Of a stretch of 64,000 bases of DNA, positions 10,325 to 31,964 are shown piece by piece (position 1 is the stretch's first letter; the number at the start of each line of letters is the position of its first letter). A model generated the notes under the pieces. It was not told the DNA's origin and searched no databases. It saw only the letters and a program-made list of their open reading frames with translations. Source of the stretch: Bacillus sp. (in: firmicutes) (GTDB lineage: Bacteria > Bacillota > Bacilli > Bacillales > Bacillaceae_J); the NCBI GenBank assembly GCA_012842745.1, contig DUSF01000049.1, positions 124,001 to 188,000 on the forward strand. The letters are read 5' to 3'. The position numbers and the translations under genes are program-made.

Positions 10325-10594
10325 CTACGGATTGCTTAAAGTTTCATCATAATGTCCGCAGTTTCGCAAAATAAGTTTATCAGGTTTTTCTATTTCAAAA
10401 GTAATTCGCAAATCCATATTGGCACTTGCCTCCCAGACATTTGGATTACGATAACCTTTCATTTTCTTTATACGTAATGACGGATGTGAGAAATCTTGGG
10501 CTATTATTGTAAGAGCATTTTTGATTGTCTTTTGAGATTGCAGGTCCAATTTCTTGTATTTTTTTACAAAAACTTTTGTAAATTCAAGTTCCAT
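10325..10594 (-). CDS. RelE/ParE-superfamily-like toxin
   Basis: Start chosen at the ATG at 10594 (MELEFTKVFVKKYKKL), preceded by AGAGGA; its A is shared with the stop of the antitoxin gene (TAATG), a sign of translational coupling. The 89-residue basic protein has the RelE/YafQ-like pattern: helical 'FVKKYKKLDLQSQKTIKNAL', then 'SLRIKKMKGYRNPNVWEASA', 'DLRITFEIEK' and 'LILRNCGHYDET', the last resembling the C-terminal His-containing strand of mRNA interferases. Family members cut mRNA on the ribosome or block gyrase. Together with the AbrB-type gene upstream it forms a type II toxin-antitoxin operon. Confidence 0.75.
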   Translation of the reverse strand: MELEFTKVFVKKYKKLDLQSQKTIKNALTIIAQDFSHPSLRIKKMKGYRNPNVWEASANMDLRITFEIEKPDKLILRNCGHYDETLSNP

Positions 10595-10938
10595 TATTTT
10601 TCCTCTTTTGCCCAATCATCCGATTCATTGCTATCTAGCCAATCAAGTGCATCGTCAACATTATCAAATGATGTTACATGGCCTAATTTAATATTTTTAT
10701 CCGCTTCTTGTTCTTCTTTTTGCCATTCTTCTGACCAAAACCACCGTTGGCTGACTGGAACTTGAACCATCGGAACAATAACAATTTCACCGTTTTCATC
10801 AATGGATAACTCTAATGTATCTCCTTCCTCTAGATTGAACCGCTCCATTACAGATTTGGGCAAGGTTACTTGTCCACGTTTGCGAATAGTAAGCCGCTCC
10901 TTCAAGGTATCACTTCTTTCAGTTAATTTTGTACCCAT
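10594..10938 (-). CDS. AbrB/MazE-type antitoxin
   Basis: The swapped-hairpin AbrB DNA-binding motif is visible near the N-terminus: 'ERLTIRKRGQVTLPKSVMER' then 'LEEGDTLELSIDENGEIVIVP'. The acidic C-terminus ('DDALDWLDSNESDDWAKEEK') is the likely toxin-neutralising tail. I choose the ATG at 10938 (MGTKLTER), which has GGAG six bases before it, giving 114 residues. A longer in-frame start at 10983 lies only six bases from a TATAAT box (10990-10995) and would give an almost leaderless mRNA. The last base of its stop codon is the first base of the toxin's start. Autorepression at the TATAAT box is expected from the family. Confidence 0.78.
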   Translation of the reverse strand: MGTKLTERSDTLKERLTIRKRGQVTLPKSVMERFNLEEGDTLELSIDENGEIVIVPMVQVPVSQRWFWSEEWQKEEQEADKNIKLGHVTSFDNVDDALDWLDSNESDDWAKEEK

Positions 10939-10997
10939 TTTATGCTCCATCCTCTCCATTGTTTCCGAATTTCTGAAATTCATACTTTTATTATAAC

Positions 10998-17543: not shown

Positions 17544-18270
17544 TTGCCAGCGTCAAAGAGTTGATTGATTTCGGTGATAATGAGCCTAGTGTTTTCGCAA
17601 TTTGTCGTAATGTTGTGCCTGTTGTATAAATGTCGTCGATGATGAGAAGGGATTTGTTGTAATAGCGGTCTAGTTGGATATCTTGTTTTAGGAGAAAAGG
17701 GGAGTCCGTTACGATTCTTTCCGCTTTTTTCTTTTTACTTTGTTTTTCGGAGTGTGTACGCGCGAGGATATCTTCGATTGGTACGTTTAATAGGCTTGCC
17801 AATGAATAAGCCTGATTAAACCCCCTTTCATAAAGGCGTTCGGCGCTTAGTGGAACCGGGAGGATAATGGGAGGATTTTTTTGATCAAACGTTTGTTTAA
17901 ACTTATTTTGCATGTAGGAAGTGAAAATTTTCACGATTTCATGGTCACCGCGAAATTTAAATTGTGCCAATAGTTCCCTTAGAAAATCGTTGTAGTAGAA
18001 AATCGAAATATTTTTCGTCAAGAGGTCTTGCCATCCTGATTGTCGTTCCCAAAGAAAACAGTCATTGCAGATGTCTTGTTTTCTGAACTTATTGTCCAGC
18101 TTAGAAAACGGACGACTGCAGCTGCGGCATTGTTCACCTGTGATAAGTTCTAGTTTTTGGTTGCAAGGGTGACAGATTTGCGGCTCGTTTTGCCAGCTTG
18201 ATAAGGTAAATAGCGTACTCCAGGTAATTGTTTCATTAATTGGTTGATGGCAAATAAGACAGCGCATCAT
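17536..18270 (-). CDS. comFC: Competence protein ComFC (phosphoribosyltransferase-like)
   Basis: A 244-residue protein with an N-terminal zinc-binding region of cysteine pairs ('CLICHQPI', 'CHPCNQKL', 'CRSC', 'CNDC') and a C-terminal phosphoribosyltransferase fold with the PRPP loop 'LLIIDDIYTTGTTLRQ'. It works with ComFA in pulling transforming DNA across the membrane. GGAGGGG precedes two consecutive ATGs. The first ATG shares its A with the stop of the upstream HEPN gene (TAATG), so comFC is now translationally coupled to an inserted HEPN/MNT pair rather than to comFB. Confidence 0.93.
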   Translation of the reverse strand: MMRCLICHQPINETITWSTLFTLSSWQNEPQICHPCNQKLELITGEQCRSCSRPFSKLDNKFRKQDICNDCFLWERQSGWQDLLTKNISIFYYNDFLRELLAQFKFRGDHEIVKIFTSYMQNKFKQTFDQKNPPIILPVPLSAERLYERGFNQAYSLASLLNVPIEDILARTHSEKQSKKKKAERIVTDSPFLLKQDIQLDRYYNKSLLIIDDIYTTGTTLRQIAKTLGSLSPKSINSLTLARS

Positions 18271-18677
18271 TAGTTCCCCTCCTCATCGTTTATTTTTTGT
18301 TGGAGAAACAAATATGTCTCCTTCATAATTGGATAATATTGTTTGATATTTTTATAAATACGTTCAGCCAGCTTCTCATCATATACATGTGATGTTGAAT
18401 TTCGATCTTTCAACATTTTTAGCCATATTTCTTCGTTATGTATCCAGTTCGCCTTATAGGCTTCTTTTAGGGTAGACCTAGGTGTAGTTGCTTCAACTCC
18501 ATCTTCCTCTAAAAATCTTTTTAATGTCTTCCAAAAAAGTTCTATCGTAAATTCAAAGCGCTGTATCGTTCCATCAATTAATAATTTATCAGTCGTCTCT
18601 CTTTGCACCGCATCTTCTAAGCGGTCTAGTGCATTTTTAAGATTGCTCATGCTTTGTTTCAGTTTTGGCATTGTCAT
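18270..18677 (-). CDS. HEPN-domain protein (HI0074/HepT-like), partner of MNT
   Basis: An all-helical protein of about 135 residues. The motif 'RNSTSH' (Arg-x4-His) before 'VYDE' is the HEPN ribonuclease signature, and the family is the nucleotidyltransferase substrate-binding (HI0074) or HepT toxin type. 'FEFTIELFWKTLKRFLEEDG' is the central helix of that family. The start is uncertain: ATG at 18677 (MTMPKLKQSM) fits an AAGGA best, and an earlier ATG is at 18686. It overlaps the MNT gene by about 40 bases and ends in TAATG with comFC. It probably forms a toxin-antitoxin or RNA-modifying pair. Confidence 0.8.
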   Translation of the reverse strand: MTMPKLKQSMSNLKNALDRLEDAVQRETTDKLLIDGTIQRFEFTIELFWKTLKRFLEEDGVEATTPRSTLKEAYKANWIHNEEIWLKMLKDRNSTSHVYDEKLAERIYKNIKQYYPIMKETYLFLQQKINDEEGN

Positions 18678-18963
18678 AAAGCACACATCCTTCTCTTTTT
18701 ATATTAGTTTTTAGTTCATCTGAGGCTTCAGTAAGCCAAACAACATCAATGGATAATAGAGTATCTAATTCTTCTTGTAGTTGAAAATAAAGGTCTAGCC
18801 AGTCGCTTTCTACAATTTTTTCAGCTTCGATAGCAAGATCAATATCCGATCGTTCTAATGCGTCACCTCTTGCCCGGGAGCCAAATAAAATGACTTTTTC
18901 TACGCCTTCATAGTTTTGCGCGATTTTTATGATTTGATTTTTTATTTTTTCATCGAGTTGCAA
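18637..18963 (-). CDS. Minimal nucleotidyltransferase (MNT), antitoxin-like
   Basis: A small protein of the DNA polymerase beta superfamily. The catalytic motif GS-x10-DxD is intact: 'LFGSRARGDALERSDIDLAI'. Members paired with HEPN toxins neutralise them by AMP-transfer to, or binding of, the HEPN Tyr region. The start is probably TTG at 18963, six bases after GGGGTGA; GTG at 18972 is the alternative. It lies 61 bases after comFA on the same strand, so it probably rides on the com transcript. Confidence 0.8.
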   Translation of the reverse strand: MQLDEKIKNQIIKIAQNYEGVEKVILFGSRARGDALERSDIDLAIEAEKIVESDWLDLYFQLQEELDTLLSIDVVWLTEASDELKTNIKREGCVLYDNAKTETKHEQS

Positions 18964-21501: not shown

Positions 21502-21939
21502 TTATGTGTAAATATTAATTAATAGTCCTTTGATTTCCCCAACCATATTTAAAATATCAAGGCTCTTTTTTTCCTTGTCTAAAACAGCGTTTGTCAAATC
21601 AATTAATTTTTTATCGACTTCTTTCACGATTTTATAGATTTTTGTACGGCCCCGGCGGTTGAAGCCACGGCGTTCCTCAAGCTGGAGACCATTTTGGACG
21701 GCTTCGTCTAAAAACTCCTTGACCATTTTTTTATATTTTCTTAGCTCATCAATCGTTCTTGATTCCGCCAAAACTTTTCCTTGGTCTTCGATGTCTTGAA
21801 CAAGCTTTGTTAATTTTTCATAGACCATTTCCTGACGGTTTTTCCCCATTACTTCTTGGAATGAAATACTTTCAGTTGGCCCGCTTTTTTTTGATTGTAT
21901 GTTATTTAGGCTGGTTTTCCCTACCTTTTGTACATCCAT
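21502..21939 (-). CDS. yaaR: YaaR-family protein (DUF327)
   Basis: A 145-residue basic, helical cytoplasmic protein. The region 'EFLDEAVQNGLQLEERRGFN' followed by 'RRGRTKIYKIVKEVDKKL' is the conserved YaaR/DUF327 core. Function is unknown; some relatives neighbour flagellar genes. The ATG follows GGCGGG. It lies 32 bases before degV. The 184-base gap upstream contains a TATAAT hexamer and a short GGAGATTAATCTCC palindrome, but I see no clear promoter. Confidence 0.82.
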   Translation of the reverse strand: MDVQKVGKTSLNNIQSKKSGPTESISFQEVMGKNRQEMVYEKLTKLVQDIEDQGKVLAESRTIDELRKYKKMVKEFLDEAVQNGLQLEERRGFNRRGRTKIYKIVKEVDKKLIDLTNAVLDKEKKSLDILNMVGEIKGLLINIYT

Positions 21940-22123: not shown

Positions 22124-22483
22124 TTAGCTGTTTGCAGCTCCCTTTATAACTCTGATTTCAACATCATGTGTTTCAACCTTTTTCTCAATTCTATCTACCT
22201 TTTCTTCAAGAGAGACTAACTTTTCATACGTTTGTTTGTATCCATCAAATAACACCTTATGGTTTGTTTCTACTTTATTTTCAAGTAATATTAACCTTTG
22301 CTCAAGGCCATCTACTCTTTGCTCAAGTCTGTCTACTTTTTGTTCAAGTCTATCTACTTTTTCCTCAAGTCTGTCTACTTTTTGTTCAACCTTAAACAAA
22401 TCTTGTTTTGTTGCCATGTTAGATTTCATTTCTTGCATTTCAACATACATTTTTTCTAATAAATTAAAAACCTTGTCATCCAT
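22124..22483 (-). CDS. Heptad-repeat coiled-coil protein
   Basis: A 119-residue protein with no recognised enzyme domain. The middle (about residues 30-75) is a run of near-identical heptads of the form (V)DRLE(Q/E)(K/R)V, giving a strict parallel coiled-coil pattern, and another heptad stretch, 'LVSLEEKVDRIEKKVE', follows near 90-105. No signal peptide or membrane segment. AGGAGATG precedes the ATG. At the DNA level the heptads are 21-base direct repeats, which can expand or shrink. It stands alone between yaaR and the second flagellin. Confidence 0.75.
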   Translation of the reverse strand: MDDKVFNLLEKMYVEMQEMKSNMATKQDLFKVEQKVDRLEEKVDRLEQKVDRLEQRVDGLEQRLILLENKVETNHKVLFDGYKQTYEKLVSLEEKVDRIEKKVETHDVEIRVIKGAANS

Positions 22484-22644: not shown

Positions 22645-24162
22645 TTAACCTTGTAGCAATTGAAGCACGCCTTGCGGCAATTGGTTTGCTTGTGCAAGCA
22701 TTGCTTGTGCTGATTGGTTGAGAATGTTGTTCTTTGTGAATTCTGTCATTTCTAATGCCATATCAGCGTCACGGATGCGTGATTCTGAAGCTGATAGGTT
22801 TTCATGTGTTACTTGTAAGTTGTTAATTGTATGCTCTAGGCGGTTTTGTGTTGCTCCGAGCTTTGAACGTGTTGCTGAAATTTGATTAATTGCTTGGTCA
22901 AATTTAAAAATTGCTTGGTTTGCATCAAAATGCGATAGAACACTTATCTTATCAATACCAAGCTTTACAGTGCTTAATTCAGGTACGTCAATCATTACAT
23001 TTTGGTTAGTATTGGCACCGATTTGGAATGCTAATGCCTTGTTTGTTAAATCAAAATCAGATTTTCCATCCTTAATATTTGTGCCAAATGTTAATTCAAG
23101 TCCTCCATGTTTGATTACACCGTTTGAAGTTGTTAATTCCTTCTCAAATGTTATTGGGATTCCTTTTGCATTTCCACCACTCGCGATTTGTCCATCGGCA
23201 CCTAATGGATACTTTTCAACAGAAACTTTTATCTTCGTTTCTAATTGCACTTTTGCCTTTCCAGCAGCTGTTATTTGTGAGAAATCAATCATTAATTGTT
23301 TGCCATCTACTGTACCTACTTTTTGAATTGGGCCACCAGTATTACTACTAGCACTATCACCAATTAGACCTGCTAAACTACCAATCGAGAATCCGTCTGG
23401 ATCGAATACTTCGATTGTTGCATTTTTACTAACTACCGTGGATCCTGATAAGGTTTCATCATATTTCGTAACAACGATTGTATATTCTCCTAACTTAAGA
23501 TCCCTACCAATGGCTTTATCCCCAGCTAACTGAGAGCCCGAACTAGCAATTACATTCGCAGAACTTACCCCAGCACCTGGCTGATTTAATGATTTAACAT
23601 ATGAACCAGATGATGTAGCTCCATTAACTTTAATTGCATATTTACCTGTTACCATGCTAGGGTCAGATACAATTGGAACTCCAACAATTCCTATTTGATT
23701 TCCACTTCCCCCGTTGCCTTTGAAGTATTGCGTATCCACCGCACTTGACCCATCTAATAGTTTACGAGTATTAAACTCCGTTTTTGATGCGATACTATCA
23801 ATTTCTAGTAGTAATTGATCAATTTCCTTTTGTACAGCTTCGCGGTCAAATGTTGTATTTGTATCGTTGGCTGCTTGAACTGCTAGTTCACGCATACGTT
23901 GAAGCATCGCGTGTACTTCTGTCATTGCACCCTCTGCTGTTTGCATTAGTGATACGCCGTCTAGTGAGTTGCGTTCTGCTTGTTTTAGACCGCGGATTTG
24001 CGAGCGCATTTTTTCAGAGATTGCTAGACCTGCTGCATCATCTGCGGCACGGTTGATGCGTAAGCCTGATGATAGTTTTTCTAAGTTTTTCGAAGTTTGG
24101 AATTGGTTTTTGTAAAGGTTACGGTAAGCATTTAATGCTTGAATATTATGGTTAATTTGCAT
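22645..24162 (-). CDS. Second flagellin, long form
   Basis: A 505-residue flagellin. The N-terminal D0/D1 contains 'NLEKLSSGLRINRAADDAAG' and 'LAISEKMRSQIRGLKQAERN'. The C-terminal end 'NLSASESRIRDADMALEMTE' with 'FTKNNILNQSAQAML' closes D1/D0. The central 300 residues, rich in Gly, Ser and Thr with beta pattern, are about 130 longer than in hag and would form an enlarged outer domain. GGAGA precedes the ATG. It lies in one transcription unit with the FliS-like gene under a SigmaD promoter. Whether it mixes into the main filament or forms part of a distinct one is unknown. Confidence 0.95.
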   Translation of the reverse strand: MQINHNIQALNAYRNLYKNQFQTSKNLEKLSSGLRINRAADDAAGLAISEKMRSQIRGLKQAERNSLDGVSLMQTAEGAMTEVHAMLQRMRELAVQAANDTNTTFDREAVQKEIDQLLLEIDSIASKTEFNTRKLLDGSSAVDTQYFKGNGGSGNQIGIVGVPIVSDPSMVTGKYAIKVNGATSSGSYVKSLNQPGAGVSSANVIASSGSQLAGDKAIGRDLKLGEYTIVVTKYDETLSGSTVVSKNATIEVFDPDGFSIGSLAGLIGDSASSNTGGPIQKVGTVDGKQLMIDFSQITAAGKAKVQLETKIKVSVEKYPLGADGQIASGGNAKGIPITFEKELTTSNGVIKHGGLELTFGTNIKDGKSDFDLTNKALAFQIGANTNQNVMIDVPELSTVKLGIDKISVLSHFDANQAIFKFDQAINQISATRSKLGATQNRLEHTINNLQVTHENLSASESRIRDADMALEMTEFTKNNILNQSAQAMLAQANQLPQGVLQLLQG

Positions 24163-24197: not shown

Positions 24198-24626
24198 TTA
24201 GTTATCTTCCATTAAGATACTTTTTTCATATGCCATTGCTTTTTGTCTCACTACTGTTGAAGATGAAGATGGCTTGTTCTTCATTGCCTCGTTCCATGTT
24301 ATTACAATTGGTTCTAATGCTTTTATGACTTCTTCAATAAGCTTTGTATCTTTTTTATAGTTTGCCTCAATTACTTTGTCTGCCATGTAATTATATAAGG
24401 CATCTAGCTGGTCGGCGATAATCCCCGCTTCGTAATTTAGACCTGCACCCAAGCGGTGTAATATATCATTTGCTTTTTGAAGCTTCTTGTTGGCGACGAC
24501 AAAGTCTTTGTTGTTTATATCATCAATCGCTTCTTCTAAATTTGTGAGACATGCTTCATATAGAAGTGCTGTAATTTCTTGAGGTGATTTTTTAAATAGT
24601 GCATCTTCTGTTAGTATGCCGGTCAC
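24198..24626 (-). CDS. fliS: FliS-like flagellin export chaperone
   Basis: A 142-residue helical protein. 'SPQEITALLYEACLTNLEEA' followed by 'NKDFVVANKKLQKANDILHR' corresponds to the FliS four-helix core that cradles the flagellin C-terminus. It is directly upstream of the second flagellin (35-base gap) and behind a perfect SigmaD promoter, so it is likely that flagellin's dedicated chaperone. Start is GTG at 24626, with GGAGGTG eight bases before. The C-terminal 30 residues (Ser-rich, then 'QKAMAYEKSILMEDN') extend beyond the usual core. Confidence 0.85.
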   Translation of the reverse strand: MTGILTEDALFKKSPQEITALLYEACLTNLEEAIDDINNKDFVVANKKLQKANDILHRLGAGLNYEAGIIADQLDALYNYMADKVIEANYKKDTKLIEEVIKALEPIVITWNEAMKNKPSSSSTVVRQKAMAYEKSILMEDN

Positions 24627-24660
24627 GTATTGTGCACCTCCGTTTTGTTATCTGCTCTTT

Positions 24661-24687
24661 TTATCGGCATGAAAATTGTAGAGTTTA
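24661..24687 (-). promoter_or_regulatory. SigmaD promoter of fliS-flagellin 2
   Basis: Minus strand TAAA, 15-base spacer, GCCGATAA. The TAAA overlaps the stop codon of the upstream FlhB-like gene, and the fliS start is 35 bases downstream. Confidence 0.85.
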
Positions 24688-24996
24688 ATAGTTTGTTGAA
24701 TAGTTTTTTTCCATTTCTTCGATAAGCAACAATATTTCCGCCATTACTTGATAGAGTTGTGGGGGGATGTTATCCCCCAAATCCATGTCTAGTAAATTTT
24801 CTACTAACTTTGAATCCTCTTGCATATGGATGTTATTTTTTTTGGCGACTTCGATAATTTGCCGGGCCACATCTCCTTTACCATGGGCAACAACGACTGG
24901 CGCTTTGCCTGAACCCTCATCATATTTAATGACGGCTGCTGATGGGCCGTTAATCTCTTTACGTCTTTTTTGATTGTAGTATCTTGAAACAATCAT
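24685..24996 (-). CDS. Free-standing FlhB C-terminal-domain protein (YlqH-like)
   Basis: A 103-residue soluble protein matching the cytoplasmic C-terminal domain of the export-gate protein FlhB: 'AVIKYDEGSGKAPVVVAHGKG', 'IIEVAKKNNIHMQEDSKLVE', 'GDNIPPQLYQVMAEILLLIE'. The NPTH self-cleavage motif of FlhB is replaced by 'NGPS', and no membrane part is present, so it resembles the cleaved FlhB-CC fragment as a separate gene. Full FlhB-C contacts FliK to switch export from hook to filament proteins. Here the gene overlaps the end of a FliK-like gene by four bases (ATGA), so the two are translationally coupled. Confidence 0.87.
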   Translation of the reverse strand: MIVSRYYNQKRRKEINGPSAAVIKYDEGSGKAPVVVAHGKGDVARQIIEVAKKNNIHMQEDSKLVENLLDMDLGDNIPPQLYQVMAEILLLIEEMEKNYSTNY

Positions 24997-27900
24997 ATTT
25001 TAAAGTCCATTCCTTTCTCCGTAAAGACTGGTCTCATTTGCATTTGTTGTTCTTCTTTGTTTGTTTTTTCTTGCTGACCGCTTGCTTGTTGGCTATTAAT
25101 CGGTGTCATTCTCGTAAAATTAATGTTGCCCACGTTGTAGCCGATTTCTTGCAATTTTTCCTTTGTAAAGGCCGCAATTGGCTCCATTTTTTGTTTAAAG
25201 CCTGTTTTGTCATTTTTTATTGTAATTGATAGACTACGCTCTGTTGATGAAAGCATGATGCCAACATCGCCAAGTTTTTTTGTTTCAATTAAAAAATATA
25301 GGTTGCAGTTTTCCCAATCCACTTGTTGTCCTTCCTTTTTGGAATTGACGAACACTTGTAGATTTTGTGGTTTTTCTCCTAATAATAGTGGCAAGTTGAA
25401 AAACATGCTCTGTAATGTGTTGCCTGAATCTGATTTGCTTAAAAGCTGTTGCCCAGTCAAGTTGTTAAGGGCTTGTTCTGCCTGTTGGGCGATTTTTGTT
25501 GATGCTTCATCCCCACCAGTTTGAGCAAGCTTCATTAAAACTGCTTTTAAGTTTTGCTGTTGTTCGTGGTTTTGTTGTTGCTCTTGGGCCCCATGACCAT
25601 GATTGAATTGCGAATTTCCGCCTTTTTGAAACACTAAAGATTTCGCGAGATCACTATCATGATTCAAGCCAAGTGAGCGCACTGTTTCATACATTTGACG
25701 GGCAGATGGTTCTTGTCTTACATATGAACGTGCTGTTTCGTCAAATTGGTTTAACATCTGTCGCTGCGCTGATTTTGGTTCTACATTCATGCTTTCCTTT
25801 GAAACATAATGCATTACTTTTTGATCGGATGGCTTGAAATTAATTTTGTCCATTAGTGCTTTGATGTCATGAACAATTTTTGCTGCTTCAGCATGATTCC
25901 CTTTTGCTAACAGCTTTTTAGCATCTGCTAGCTGAGAGCTAGCTTGCATTAGTTGCTTTTCAGTTTTCATATCCGTAAACAGCATCATATCGCTTTTTAA
26001 AATAGCATTATCAAGCTTATTAATCGTTGTTTCTAGTATTTGCTTTGCCTGTGGATAGGCATTTTTCTTATACATATTTGCTAGTCGTTCAATTGTATCT
26101 AAGTTTCTAGTAATCTCCCGTTTTAGCTCACGGAAGTCATGGGTAGCTTGGGCAAGCTTTTGGGTAACTTTTGTCACTAGAAGGTTTTTCGACTCTAGCG
26201 GTAATGTTTGAAATTGCACATTTTGCTCAAATTGTTTGATTAATGCATCTTGATTTGCCCTTTGTTGGTCTGCTGCTTGTAAAGGCTCAGATTCGGTTCT
26301 CGCTAGTTCTTGTTCGACTTCAGTTAGTGCGTTTGTGATTTGCTGGCGTGCACCTAGTTCACGGCCTTTTTCTAACAGTTGTGACGAACGGTCGATTGCG
26401 TTTTCGACTTTTTCAACCATTTTTAAATCTAGGTTAGGATTGCTTAATATTTCCTGTCTGATTTGGTTTAGTGCTCTTTCAAGGCTTGGCTCTTTTTGAA
26501 TTTGTTTTAGTGCTTCTTTGATGAGTTCACTTGGGCCTGTCTTGTTTGTTGCTGTTGGTGACTCTTGTTCTATCATATCCGCAAGGATTTTGCTAAGCTG
26601 GTCGTTATTTGTTTGTGCTGATTGTGTTGCTTTTGTCTGACTTTGTTGGTCAGACTGAGTTTTAGATAACGATTCGACTTGCTTCGAATTTTGGGCCTCA
26701 GTTTCGATTTGGTTTTGTTCGCTTACGCCTTTGTTTTCCATCTGGTTCTGAGTTTGACTTTGATTTTGGGCAAGATTTGGCGCACGTACCTCAGTCTGTT
26801 TTATTACATCTTCAACCTGCTCTAAAATTTTGGCAATTCGCTCGCGACCAGCCTGGTCTAGTTGACTAGCTTGGTTTGCGATTTGTTCAATGGGGCGAAT
26901 CGCTTCCATATCGATATTTTTGTTATTTGCTATTAGATTACGAACTACCTCAACAGCGCGTTGGATGTTTGCTTCTCGTTGGACTGCTTCTTTTATTTGT
27001 TTAATAACTTCGCTTGCTGGTTGATTAGTAGCCTCACTTGCTGGTAGTTGCATCTGCTGACCTTGTTCAACTTTTGACTGTTGTACTTGTTGGCCATGCT
27101 CGGCTTTTGGTATTTGCTGCTGTGCTTCAATCTGCCTTAAATCTCTTTCGGCTTGATCTATTGCCCGAATTAAATGGTCTCGACTCATGCCTTCTCTACC
27201 GATTTGCTGTAATTGGCGTGCCTCGGTTACCGCTTTTTCTACTCTCTCCGCTACCTCTCGATTTACTTTTGGATTGTTGACTACTTGTTCACGGACTTTG
27301 TCAATCACTTTTTGTAAATCAGCTTCTCGTTGGATTTCTTCTTTTACCTGTTTCACCGTTTCGCTCGCTGATTGGTCAGTTGTGCGAACAGCTTGTTGCG
27401 TTTGATTTAGTTGTTCCGCTTTACTTTGTTGTTCTGTTGGTCGGCGGTCTTGTTGTGGTTGCATTTGTTGCTCCACTTTTGGTTGTTGTAGCTGTTGACC
27501 TTGTTCAGCTTTTGGCTGTTGTTGTGTTGCTTGACCTTGCTCGTTTTTTGTTATTTGCTGTTGCCGTGCCTCGACTTGCTTTAGTTCTTGTTCTGCTTGC
27601 TCCAATGCTTGCGTTAAACGCTCACGACCCATTGGTTCTCGGCCATCTTGTTGCAACTGACGGGCTTCCGTTAATGCTTTATCGATTTTCTCCGCTACCT
27701 CTTGATTTACTTTCGGGTTGTTGACCACTTGGTCACGGACTTTGTCAATCACTTTTTGTAAATCAGCTTCTCGTTGAATTTCTTCTTTTACTTGTTTCAC
27801 CGTTTCGCTCGCTGATTGGTCAGTTGTGCGAACAGCTTGTTGCGTTTGATTTGGTTGTTCCGCTTTACTTTGTTGTTCTGTTGGTCGGCGGTCCGGTTGT

Positions 27901-30854
27901 GGTTGCGGTTGTTGCTCCACTTGTGGTTGTTGCAGCTGTTGGCCTTGTTCAGCTTTTGGCTGTTGTTGTGTTGCTTGACCTTGCTCATTTTTTGTTATTT
28001 GCTGTTGCCGTGCCTCGACTTGCTTTAATTCTTGCTCTGCTTGCTCCAATGCTTGCGTTAAACGCTCACGACCCATTGGTTCTCGGCCAACTTGTTGCAA
28101 CTGACGGGCTTCCGTTAATGCTTTATCGATTTTCTCCGCTATCTCTTGATTTACTTTCGGATTGTTAACCACTTGGTCACGGACTTTGTCAATCACTTTT
28201 TGTAAATTCGCTTCTCGTTGGATTTCTTCTTTTACTTGTTTCACCGTTTCGCTCGCTGGCTGCTCCGTTGCTTGGCGACCTTGCTGTTGTTGCGATTGCG
28301 GTTGCTGATTTAATTTTAGGTCTTTTACTTGTGTATCCTGCTGCTGTTGATTTTGCTCTGCTTTTGGCTGCGATGCTTGTTGTTGGCGTACCTCAATTTG
28401 CTTTAATTCTTGCTCTGCTTGCTCCAATGCTTGCGTTAAACGCTCGCGGCCCATTGTTTCTCGGCCAACTTGTTGCAACTGACGGGCTTCCGTTAATGCT
28501 TTATCGATTTTCTCCGCTACCTCTTGATTTACTTTCGGGTTGTTGACCACTTGTTCACGGACTTTGTCAATCACTTTTTGTAAATTCACTTCTCGTTGGA
28601 TTTCTTCTTTTACTTGTTTCGCCGTTTCGCTCGCCGGCTGCCCCGTTGTTTGGCGACCTTGCTGTTGTTGCGATTGCGGTTGCTGATTTAATTTTAGGTC
28701 TTTTACTTGTGTATCCTGCTGCTGTTGATTTTGCTCGGCTTTTGGCTGTGATGCTTGTTGTTGGCGTACCTCAATTTGCTTTAATTCTTGCTCTGCTTGC
28801 TTCAATGCTTGCGTTAAACGCTCGCGGCCCATTGTTTCTCGGCCAACTTGTTGCAACTGACGGGCTTCCGTTAATGCTTTATCAATTTTCTCCGCTACCT
28901 CTTGATTTACTTTCGGGTTGTTGACCACTTGTTCACGAACTTTTTCAATTGCACGATCCAAATTGGCTTCACGTTGAACTTCTTCTTTTATTTGTTTTAC
29001 TGTTTCACTTGCTGGTTGGTCGGTTATGCGACTCGCTTGTTGCTGCTGATTTTGTTGCTCCACTTTACCTGGTTGTTGTTCTACTGGTCGGCGTTCCGGC
29101 TGTGATTGTGTTTGTTGCTCTACTTTTAGCTGTTGTTGTCCTTGTTCAGCTTTTGACTGTTGACTTTGCTCAACCTTTGGTTGTTGTTGTTGACGAGCCT
29201 CGACTTGCTTTAGGTCCTGTTCTGCTTGGTCTAATGCCCGTGCTAAATAATCACGGCCCATACTGTCTTGGCCAATTCGGTGGAGCTGGCGTACAACATT
29301 AACTGCTTTTTCAATCTCCTCTGCTACCGCACGGTCTACTTTTGGATTATTGACAACTTGGACGCGAACTTTTTCGATTGCACGCTCCAAATTGGCTTCA
29401 CGTTGAACTTCCTCTTTTATTTGTTTTACTGTTTCACTTGCTGGTTGGTCGGTTATGCGACTCGCTTGTTGCTGCTGTTGATCTTTCCCTTTTGTTTCAA
29501 TAGTAGCTAGTTCACTTTCAACAGTATTTAAAGCATTTACTAACGTTTCTTTTCCCACTGTAATGCGTCCTTGCTGTTGCAAGCGACCTGCTTCTTCTAC
29601 TGCTTGTTTCACTTTTTCAATGACCTCAGCCGGAATTTTTGGATTATCAATGATTTGGCTTTTAACCATTTCTAGCGCACGTTGTAAATTCGGTGTTTTA
29701 CTTACTTCCTCTTTTATAATTTGGACAATTTCTCTTGGTGTTGCTTCACGTAAAGAAGCTCCATCTACACCTCTATTTTGATTTGCGGTTACCTTCGTAT
29801 TTTCTTGGCTTTGCTGTTCTTTTTTTACCAATTGCTCTTCCGCATTTTTTAAAGCTTGAATAAGCCGATCTTTTCCAATCGCTTGTAGCTTCTCTGCTTC
29901 GGAAGCTGCTTTTTCGACTTTTTGAGCTAATTCTCGGTCGATTGAAGGATTTTTAACGATTTCAGCGCGAACCTTTTCGACAGCTTCTTTTAAATCCGAG
30001 GCTTTTTCAACAAATTCCCGATTTTTTTGCAAAAGCTCAGTGAGCTGCTTCGTAGCTGGTGCCGTTTCTGTACTTTGCTTTTCAGCTTTAATTGTTTCAG
30101 TAGTTGTTGATGTTACAGATTTCCCATCCGTCCTTGACGTCCGCGGCATACTGTCGGCAACTTCTTGTTTGCTCGTTGTCTGCTCATTTGCCAAATTACG
30201 TTGAGCTGGGCGCGTCTCTACCTCTTTTTGCTCATTTTTTACAATGTCAAATTCAGGGTCAATTTCTTTCGCTAAGCCTGTTAAAACCTCGTTCAATGGC
30301 TTGCCATGAAGCGCTTCATGAATCGGACGCAAATGTGATTGGGTTACCTCTAATCCTTTATTCACTAAAGCTTTTACCGTATCCATTTTGGCGGCAGGGC
30401 TTCCCTCTGCTTTTTCAAAAAAATTACGTAGCTCTTGGACAATTTCTTTCGTTACAGGTGTACCTTTATCCAATAAAATTTGTACGCTTTGTTTTAGTTC
30501 AGGTATATCCTTTGCAGTAATTCCAACGCTTTGAAGCGCTTTGGCATCATTGGCAAGTGCCTGTGGCTGTGGTGCCTGCGCTTGTGCCGTAGTTGGCTTC
30601 TGGGCATCAGTTGCAATCGTTTTTACAAGGACAGACTGGTCCTTTTGACCGTTTACTTGCACGGTCACTCTATCCTCTTTTGGCACCTGCCCTTCAAATG
30701 TTGCTTTTATCTCTTTGCCGCGAATTTGAATAATCGCTTCGGTATCTGATACTCGTTCTTTGATTTGTGCGTTATAGGATTCCCCTTGTTTTAACTCAAG
30801 CGGGCGTTCTGTTGTTGATAACTGATTTGTAGAAAACTGATTATAAATCTGCAT
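24993..30854 (-). CDS. Giant repeat-containing FliK-like (YlqG-like) protein
   Basis: A 1953-residue, Gln-rich protein with no signal peptide. An N-terminal beta-like domain (about 1-90) is followed by roughly ten helical modules of about 80 residues (pattern: KEEIQREANLQKVIDKVR..., NNPKVNQEVAEKIDKALTEA, RQLQQVGRE-MGRERLTQAL). Six of these, in the middle, are nearly identical. Modules are joined by Gln/Lys/Pro linkers. The last ~120 residues ('LGDVGIMLSSTERSLSITIK', 'KEKLQEIGYNVGNINF') match the FliK Flg_hook domain that engages FlhB. FliK works as a hook-length ruler, normally a few hundred residues. A SigmaD-type promoter lies upstream and a FlhB-C-like gene follows. I infer a variant ruler or substrate-switch protein; length and repeats are highly unusual. 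Confidence 0.85.
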   Translation of the reverse strand: MQIYNQFSTNQLSTTERPLELKQGESYNAQIKERVSDTEAIIQIRGKEIKATFEGQVPKEDRVTVQVNGQKDQSVLVKTIATDAQKPTTAQAQAPQPQALANDAKALQSVGITAKDIPELKQSVQILLDKGTPVTKEIVQELRNFFEKAEGSPAAKMDTVKALVNKGLEVTQSHLRPIHEALHGKPLNEVLTGLAKEIDPEFDIVKNEQKEVETRPAQRNLANEQTTSKQEVADSMPRTSRTDGKSVTSTTTETIKAEKQSTETAPATKQLTELLQKNREFVEKASDLKEAVEKVRAEIVKNPSIDRELAQKVEKAASEAEKLQAIGKDRLIQALKNAEEQLVKKEQQSQENTKVTANQNRGVDGASLREATPREIVQIIKEEVSKTPNLQRALEMVKSQIIDNPKIPAEVIEKVKQAVEEAGRLQQQGRITVGKETLVNALNTVESELATIETKGKDQQQQQASRITDQPASETVKQIKEEVQREANLERAIEKVRVQVVNNPKVDRAVAEEIEKAVNVVRQLHRIGQDSMGRDYLARALDQAEQDLKQVEARQQQQPKVEQSQQSKAEQGQQQLKVEQQTQSQPERRPVEQQPGKVEQQNQQQQASRITDQPASETVKQIKEEVQREANLDRAIEKVREQVVNNPKVNQEVAEKIDKALTEARQLQQVGRETMGRERLTQALKQAEQELKQIEVRQQQASQPKAEQNQQQQDTQVKDLKLNQQPQSQQQQGRQTTGQPASETAKQVKEEIQREVNLQKVIDKVREQVVNNPKVNQEVAEKIDKALTEARQLQQVGRETMGRERLTQALEQAEQELKQIEVRQQQASQPKAEQNQQQQDTQVKDLKLNQQPQSQQQQGRQATEQPASETVKQVKEEIQREANLQKVIDKVRDQVVNNPKVNQEIAEKIDKALTEARQLQQVGREPMGRERLTQALEQAEQELKQVEARQQQITKNEQGQATQQQPKAEQGQQLQQPQVEQQPQPQPDRRPTEQQSKAEQPNQTQQAVRTTDQSASETVKQVKEEIQREADLQKVIDKVRDQVVNNPKVNQEVAEKIDKALTEARQLQQDGREPMGRERLTQALEQAEQELKQVEARQQQITKNEQGQATQQQPKAEQGQQLQQPKVEQQMQPQQDRRPTEQQSKAEQLNQTQQAVRTTDQSASETVKQVKEEIQREADLQKVIDKVREQVVNNPKVNREVAERVEKAVTEARQLQQIGREGMSRDHLIRAIDQAERDLRQIEAQQQIPKAEHGQQVQQSKVEQGQQMQLPASEATNQPASEVIKQIKEAVQREANIQRAVEVVRNLIANNKNIDMEAIRPIEQIANQASQLDQAGRERIAKILEQVEDVIKQTEVRAPNLAQNQSQTQNQMENKGVSEQNQIETEAQNSKQVESLSKTQSDQQSQTKATQSAQTNNDQLSKILADMIEQESPTATNKTGPSELIKEALKQIQKEPSLERALNQIRQEILSNPNLDLKMVEKVENAIDRSSQLLEKGRELGARQQITNALTEVEQELARTESEPLQAADQQRANQDALIKQFEQNVQFQTLPLESKNLLVTKVTQKLAQATHDFRELKREITRNLDTIERLANMYKKNAYPQAKQILETTINKLDNAILKSDMMLFTDMKTEKQLMQASSQLADAKKLLAKGNHAEAAKIVHDIKALMDKINFKPSDQKVMHYVSKESMNVEPKSAQRQMLNQFDETARSYVRQEPSARQMYETVRSLGLNHDSDLAKSLVFQKGGNSQFNHGHGAQEQQQNHEQQQNLKAVLMKLAQTGGDEASTKIAQQAEQALNNLTGQQLLSKSDSGNTLQSMFFNLPLLLGEKPQNLQVFVNSKKEGQQVDWENCNLYFLIETKKLGDVGIMLSSTERSLSITIKNDKTGFKQKMEPIAAFTKEKLQEIGYNVGNINFTRMTPINSQQASGQQEKTNKEEQQMQMRPVFTEKGMDFKI
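27363..29436 (-). repeat. In-frame tandem DNA repeats within the giant FliK-like gene
   Basis: The phase point that encodes 'ASET' recurs at 27363, 27807, 28251, 28629, 29007 and 29436. That gives unit lengths of 444, 444, 378, 378 and 429 bases, all multiples of three (148, 148, 126, 126 and 143 codons). The two 378-base units are almost identical to each other, including their linkers, and so are the two 444-base units. This pattern indicates recent segmental duplication and would allow length change by recombination. Confidence 0.9.
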
Positions 30855-30900
30855 ATTTCTCCACTCCCGTACGATATGCTTGTAGTTTATATATCGGATG

Positions 30901-30927
30901 AAATCGGCTGTTATTAATGGAGATTTA
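30901..30927 (-). promoter_or_regulatory. SigmaD-type promoter of the giant FliK-like gene
   Basis: Minus strand TAAA, 15-base spacer, GCCGATTT, 47 bases before the ATG at 30854. A second, poorer CCGATAT-like box lies just downstream. Confidence 0.7.
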
Positions 30928-30974: not shown

Positions 30975-31964
30975 TCAGTCTAAATCTATTGATGGCAGAT
31001 AATATTTTCGTCCCTTTTTATCACCAGTATATTTGAGATTCATCGAATGAAGAAGATGGTAGGTTATTGCATCTGAGGGTAACTGTAAAAAGTCCTTGAT
31101 TTGACAATTGCTAGTTAATGACCCGTATAAAAGAACATAGTCTTCTATCGTTTTAAGGTGAGATGATTTGGAGGTAAAAGAACAGTTGTGGCAATTCCAT
31201 TTACCACGATGATATTTCATAGGAAGCGCAAGGCAATTTTCACAATAGACACCTGCCACAATATCTGAATAATCAATATTATATAGAGGAAATAAATTAG
31301 GCTTCTCAGGGGTATGCTGTTTTATTAATTGATTGGAAATTTTGTTCATTTCCTTTATCGTTATTAATTCTTTACTATACTTTTCCTTAAAATAGAAAAC
31401 TTTTTCGAGAAGTTTAGTACTTCGAACAATGCTATGCAAGTAATCTTTTTTGCTACTAATTATCTTTAAAATTGTACTTTGATTCGTTAGAACGACAATT
31501 GATTCAACTGGCATAATCGGCAGTTTTTTCTGTTTTAACCACTCTGTGAATTGAAATTGTTGGTGCTTAACTTGGAGGACGGGATCTTGAATTGCTTTTT
31601 CTATTCCTGTTGTAGAGTTTGTCCAAATAACTTGGTCAAAAGCGGGATCTAGTGTAAGGGTACCTGAAATATTTTTTACTTCAATAATTAGATAAAACGA
31701 GGTTGCAATGAGTAAAACATCAATCTGAAAGTAGCTTCCTTCTACATTTGCGAGCCTAAGATTATGAAGAATATAGTAATCTTGATTTGGTAAAAACTTA
31801 AAAAAATAGTCCAGTGATTGTTCACCTTTGAAGCCTGCTAACCGTTTGGCTAGATCCTCTTGAATCATTTGCCGTTTTATGTGGCTAGCTGGTAACCTGC
31901 AATGAATAACTTGAAGATTTTTAATTCTGTGGGTCATTTTAATTTCTTTTTTTATCAAACTCAT
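30975..31964 (-). CDS. NERD domain protein with zinc ribbon
   Basis: A 329-residue protein. The NERD (nuclease-related) domain is at about 40-160, with 'GEQSLDYFFKFL', 'FQIDVLLIATSFYLIIEVKN' and 'QVKHQQFQFTEWL': the Asp, Glu and Lys of the restriction-endonuclease-like core are present. A C-terminal zinc ribbon with CENC...CHNC (about 245-265) and a helical tail follow. Such proteins are presumed nucleases or DNA-processing factors of unknown role. The ATG at 31964 is only two bases after AGGAGG; the TTG two codons later has better spacing. It lies between the giant FliK-like gene and degU. Confidence 0.8.
   Translation of the reverse strand: MSLIKKEIKMTHRIKNLQVIHCRLPASHIKRQMIQEDLAKRLAGFKGEQSLDYFFKFLPNQDYYILHNLRLANVEGSYFQIDVLLIATSFYLIIEVKNISGTLTLDPAFDQVIWTNSTTGIEKAIQDPVLQVKHQQFQFTEWLKQKKLPIMPVESIVVLTNQSTILKIISSKKDYLHSIVRSTKLLEKVFYFKEKYSKELITIKEMNKISNQLIKQHTPEKPNLFPLYNIDYSDIVAGVYCENCLALPMKYHRGKWNCHNCSFTSKSSHLKTIEDYVLLYGSLTSNCQIKDFLQLPSDAITYHLLHSMNLKYTGDKKGRKYYLPSIDLD

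Follow-up and report, generated by a model that had tools for sequence, protein, structure and literature searches.

The window, by which we mean the whole stretch of 64,000 nucleotides analysed here, carries an old and conserved five-gene module that encodes a giant protein (YlqG2), a free FlhB-C-like protein (YlqH2), a second FliS (FliS2), a second flagellin (flagellin-2) and a DUF327 protein. Such a set occurs in many spore-forming bacteria in addition to the usual flagellum genes. By sequence comparison, the giant and YlqH2 are paralogues of YlqG and YlqH, respectively. We give an even chance to the view that the block is a dedicated gating module for the accessory flagellin, acting through a mechanism that we infer.

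Gene content and origin of the block

The open reading frames of the window confirmed the minus-strand block that the initial annotation had described, namely a 1953-residue giant, an FlhB-C-like protein, a second FliS and a second flagellin, together with the 4-base overlap. What that annotation had missed was the DUF327 gene as a fifth member, and the other ylqG–ylqH pair elsewhere in the genome. The features are listed in Table 1, and the flagellin-2 frame lies just downstream of the range 24198-30927.

Table 1. Coordinates of the module and its features in the window.
Feature	Position	Strand	Description
Giant YlqG2	24993..30854	-	1953 aa; from N- to C-terminus: beta domain, ten copies of a helical repeat joined by Gln-rich linkers, a conserved stretch of helices, switch-like domain
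N-terminal beta domain of giant	30615..30809	-	About residues 16-80; common to YlqG (BLASTP)
Helical repeat region of giant	26307..30020	-	Residues 279-1516; 10 copies of a 68-position domain (HMM count)
Predicted C-terminal T3S4/Flg_hook-like core of giant	25113..25448	-	About residues 1803-1914; AlphaFold, Foldseek, Flg_hook in orthologues
YlqH2	24685..24996	-	103 aa; free FlhB-C-like, 4-base overlap with giant, without NPTH cleavage motif
FliS2, accessory flagellin chaperone	24198..24626	-	142 aa; PF02561 1.9e-26
Flagellin-2	22645..24162	-	505 aa; Flagellin_N 3.4e-47, Flagellin_C 3.7e-31
Small coiled-coil protein	22124..22483	-	119 aa; between flagellin-2 and DUF327 gene
DUF327 (YaaR-like) protein	21502..21939	-	PF03885 4.3e-44; conserved module member
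SigD-type promoter 5' of giant	30903..30927	-	TAAA-N15-GCCGAT, weak -10 end
SigD-type promoter 5' of FliS2	24662..24687	-	TAAA-N15-GCCGATA; conserved in relatives

In BLASTP, the genome's own YlqG aligned with the giant near the C-terminus (148 aa, 26% identity, E = 1e-13) and in the N-terminal domain (E = 8e-4), and the same program found no match between the giant and the genome's FliK. A similar G-x-D-x-K/R-I tail ends both YlqG and the giant. An origin of the giant as a longer FliK was ruled out, because both of its ends match YlqG and FliK is unmatched. Since the giant and the 103-aa protein match YlqG and YlqH, the block is best read as a second ylqG–ylqH pair and not as a stray fliK–flhB pair. 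The ordinary pair is still encoded in this 3.5 Mb draft genome, where YlqH overlaps a 448-aa YlqG upstream of a sucC-like gene; the labels YlqG, YlqH and sucC follow the Bacillus subtilis locus. The window pair resembles the YlqG–YlqH pair of Bacillus (rnhB–sucC region) in its two-gene order, its 4-base overlap, its homologous N- and C-termini and its free FlhB-C-like partner. What sets it apart is that it is an additional copy, carries 10 helical repeats, has its own SigD-type promoters and is joined to FliS2, flagellin-2 and DUF327.

The initial annotation had proposed to check the rest of the genome for an ordinary fliK and a complete flhB, and both are present: fliK is located on contig C56 (450-aa frame, Flg_hook 3.3e-16), and full-length FlhB (1.8e-133) is accompanied by two further FlhB-C-like genes, one of which is YlqH. 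The main FliS is also encoded, Hag is located in the flgKL–fliW region of the window itself, and a normal FliK was found in the ten other module-bearing genomes checked. A further gene, located apart from the two flagellin loci (L010, genome G000, contig C40:4984-5241), has a 266-aa frame that matches Flagellin_C (2.6e-16) and is possibly a truncated or minor flagellin.

The Pfam/NCBIfam search with the giant returned nothing above the cut-off. The window giant alone had no significant match to Flg_hook (PF02120) in the profile search, whereas 24 of 55 giant orthologues matched it (best 1.8e-6). The AlphaFold model of the C-terminus of the window giant has a confident beta-alpha core, with pLDDT >90 over its second half. 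Foldseek placed this C-terminus closest, among solved structures, to 5cuk, the substrate-specificity-switch domain of PscP (E = 2.4e-3, probability 1.00), and ranked 2rrl, the C-terminal domain of FliK, fourth (probability 0.99). We predict that the C-terminus of the giant has the T3S4 export-switch fold. Because the orthologues and the fold both gave matches, the Flg_hook-like C-terminus of the initial annotation holds through orthologues and structure prediction, but not through any sequence match of the window protein alone. The hhalign comparison of this C-terminus with Bacillales FliK C-termini was too weak to use (probability 1%), and no meaningful match came from sequence profile searches of the PDB with either the C-terminus or the N-terminal domain. 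A short orthologue was modelled with five strands in its N-terminal domain. Foldseek on the full-length model of a 669-aa orthologue, a model of low confidence, returned only spurious receptor matches (rmsd ~25 A) and was discarded.

YlqH2 is 94-109 residues long and, as initially proposed, corresponds to a free FlhB-C: it matches Bac_export_2 (PF01312, positions 263-333, 8e-17), the solved FlhB-C 3b1s (3e-16) and the YlqH of the same genome (46% over 67 residues), and it scores 4.5e-25 against TIGR00789 flhB_rel (87.7 bits, below the curated cut-off of 117.35). Like FlhB-C and its free homologues FlhX and HP1575, it covers the FlhB-C domain. It differs from them in having neither the transmembrane domain of FlhB nor the NPTH motif, which is absent from 81 of 81 sequences, and in being tied to a YlqG-type partner and an accessory flagellin. 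Its identity is 89-92% in five of six relatives, whereas the middle of the giant varies.

FliS2 and flagellin-2 share their protein families and a SigD-type promoter with the FliS–Hag pair, but they stand at a separate locus and in separate clades. In the trees, flagellin-2 formed one clade of 78 against 43 Hag sequences (support 100/99), and FliS2 formed one clade apart from the main FliS (support 100/100). The extra flagellin and chaperone are by these clades a separate lineage from Hag and the main FliS. Where the giant occurs in other classes, the flagellins and chaperones encoded next to it fell into the same clades; the exception was a second flagellin-like protein of L203, which is very divergent. 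In five relatives, as in the window genome, the DUF327 gene is single-copy and part of the module; the solved DUF327 relatives BH1478 (2qup) and TM1646 (2p61) were deposited without a function.

Conservation, promoters and repeat number

The order giant–YlqH2–FliS2–flagellin-2 is kept in six of six same-family relatives, and the DUF327 gene is present in five of them; the contig of the sixth (G006) breaks off within flagellin-2. We also compared 80 named loci from many Bacillota genera, a sample that leans towards close homologues because it was picked by short conserved peptide patterns. In these loci the giant–YlqH2 overlap was -4 in 77, FliS2 and flagellin-2 were present in 78, and DUF327 was found in 78, the other two loci ending short of where the gene is expected. 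The co-occurrence of the four genes, which the initial annotation had suggested checking, is that of a co-inherited module. L095 and L102 keep giant–YlqH2–DUF327 and miss both FliS2 and flagellin-2, so giant–YlqH2 may act independently of the extra flagellin. About two dozen loci have none of the reference deg, com and flgKL genes within ~10 kb, which indicates that the module stays together away from its usual surroundings. In the order-level sample, a clear giant orthologue (E <= 2e-32, well separated from YlqG matches) was found in 47 of 151 genomes. Outside the class, an orthologue was present in 4 of 300 phylum genomes. Two out-of-class loci have the same gene order (L201 completely, L204 up to the contig end), and L202 and L203 have all five genes in a rearranged form. 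Open-licence papers on YlqG, YlqH, YaaR/DUF327, FlhX and a second flagellin contained no account of the module.

Other neighbours of the module are less constant. The 119-aa coiled-coil protein matched no specific family in the profile search and is kept in three of six same-family relatives. A NERD-domain protein (30975-31964) is encoded ahead of the giant in the window and in two relatives of the same family but is absent from this place in most loci, and is probably a mere neighbour. Elsewhere in the window, an AbrB-family regulator gene (10594-10983) lies between fliW and hag, and the substrate-binding subunit of an HI0074-family nucleotidyltransferase (18270-18686) is encoded within the comF region.

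Both SigmaD-type promoter motifs that had been read from the sequence exist. TAAA-N14..16-GCCGAT has four occurrences in the window, including 24663-24687 and 30903-30927, compared with a mean of 0.52 in shuffled sequence, and four was reached in 0 of 100 shuffles. The -10 of the promoter upstream of the giant is weaker, because the motif continues GCCGATTT. Among the 80 relatives, 52 of 74 loci have a SigD-like motif before FliS2 and 26 of 77 have one before the giant; the corresponding rate in random windows is 3.3%.

The giant orthologues have 653-2222 residues and 0-17 copies of the 68-position helical domain, and their length follows the copy number (rho 0.947). The window giant, with 10 repeats, is among the longest, and its DNA tandem repeats are 93-95% alike. 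In minimal orthologues with one or zero repeats, the two terminal domains and the helical stretch ahead of the C-terminus are still present; therefore the conserved function of the giant would lie at its ends. L044 and L045, whose giants are identical in the C-terminal 200 residues, differ in giant length (1122 vs 1443 residues); in this natural length-variant pair, flagellin-2 has 472 and 640 residues, respectively. A coupling between the lengths of giant and flagellin-2 was considered and dropped: the raw correlation (rho 0.54) and the Pearson contrasts (r 0.47) were suggestive, but the rank test on contrasts gave p 0.08, which is not significant, and the correlation fails in close pairs.

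Possible functions of the module

In Salmonella, export is switched by the binding of FliK-C to FlhB-C (PMC6972891). By analogy, we believe that the C-terminus of the giant probably binds YlqH2 and that the pair probably gates the export of FliS2 and flagellin-2 via the shared machine. A duplicated YlqG–YlqH-type pair would have been joined to a second chaperone–flagellin pair and DUF327, and the free FlhB-C-like domain of YlqH2 would be bound by the switch-like C-terminus of the giant at the shared flagellar export gate or close to it. The giant and YlqH2 would then decide the timing or amount of FliS2-bound flagellin-2 exported via the ordinary basal body, and the resulting filament would be mixed or alternative in its make-up. 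The helical, Gln-rich middle may serve as a spacer, a tether or an exported timer whose length is free to drift, and not as a strict hook ruler. The analysis itself establishes gene content, conserved order, the separate clades, the domain homologies and the variation in repeat number; the contact between giant and YlqH2, the action at the gate and the specificity for flagellin-2 are the steps that we infer.

The main alternative reading, which we regard as unlikely, is that a spare YlqG–YlqH pair provides a backup FlhB-C/FliK-C complex for general flagellar export, and that the flagellin and chaperone are mere co-transcribed neighbours. This would suit a pair derived from YlqG–YlqH whose parental pair is still in the genome, as well as the two loci that keep giant–YlqH2 without flagellin-2; a Helicobacter FlhB-C homologue is presented as a spare part in the title of Wand et al. 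(2006), as cited by PMC3040844. However, FliS2 and flagellin-2 adjoin the pair in 78 of the 80 loci, even where the module sits elsewhere in the genome, and both proteins belong to clades of their own. The absence of NPTH says little in favour of either view. The giant might instead be an export substrate, or a filament or surface fibre delivered with flagellin-2, whose C-terminal domain is only a delivery tag. The fast-changing repeat number and the Gln-rich linkers recall repetitive surface proteins, and the window giant is among the longest copies, but the orthologues with one or zero repeats retain both terminal domains and the helical stretch preceding the C-terminus, and we consider this reading very unlikely.

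The initial annotation had suggested a variant hook-length or late-substrate system. In a ruler reading, the giant would be exported like FliK, measure a long hook-like segment (or alternative structure) and switch export via FlhB or YlqH2 to flagellin-2. The predicted T3S4 fold, the helical and extensible middle, the presence of just a single Cys and a single Trp in the 1953-residue protein, and the loose tracking of flagellin-2 length are consistent with it. The giant is like FliK in this C-terminal fold and in the PF02120 scores of its orthologues, but it is nearer to YlqG in sequence, 4-5 times longer and hypervariable in length, and a normal FliK is encoded as well. Unlike a FliK, the giant is not the single hook-length gene of the basal-body operon, and it does not have the constant length that would suit the measuring of a hook. 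FliK frames in the family have 450-461 aa, compared with 813-1989 for the giant (open-frame lengths). Because the length of the giant varies widely and that of FliK stays at ~455, a strict hook ruler is unlikely, though the giant might conceivably measure some other structure. At the 0.2 nm of hook per residue of the Salmonella ruler (PMC6126814), the giant orthologues would specify ~105-420 nm. The free change of length between near-identical relatives such as L044 and L045, together with the normal FliK and full FlhB, speaks against the hook-length role, and we hold the ruler reading as a whole to be quite unlikely. The injectisome needle-length rulers PscP and YscP resemble the giant in having a helical middle, and the switch domain of PscP is the closest solved fold to its C-terminus; unlike them, the giant is found with flagellar genes only, its length is not fixed, and no injectisome genes were seen nearby.

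Returning to the dedicated gating module, a bolder form of it can be imagined for some Bacillota, in which YlqG2–YlqH2 would be a second specificity switch that replaces or overlays FliK–FlhB-C for a dedicated chaperone–flagellin pair, and repeat number would tune the time at which flagellin-2 is added or its distance along the filament. We speculate on this form while considering it unlikely. If true, it would place a second substrate-specificity switch at the flagellar export gate of some Bacillota. Throughout the phylum, genetic linkage joins a second flagellin and its chaperone to paralogues of export-specificity switch proteins, which bears on how one flagellar export machine tells two flagellins apart. 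This puzzle and the long-uncharacterised YlqG–YlqH and DUF327 families become testable in culturable Bacillus relatives, and the freely expanding repeat region offers a natural length series for the ruler, tether and timer ideas.
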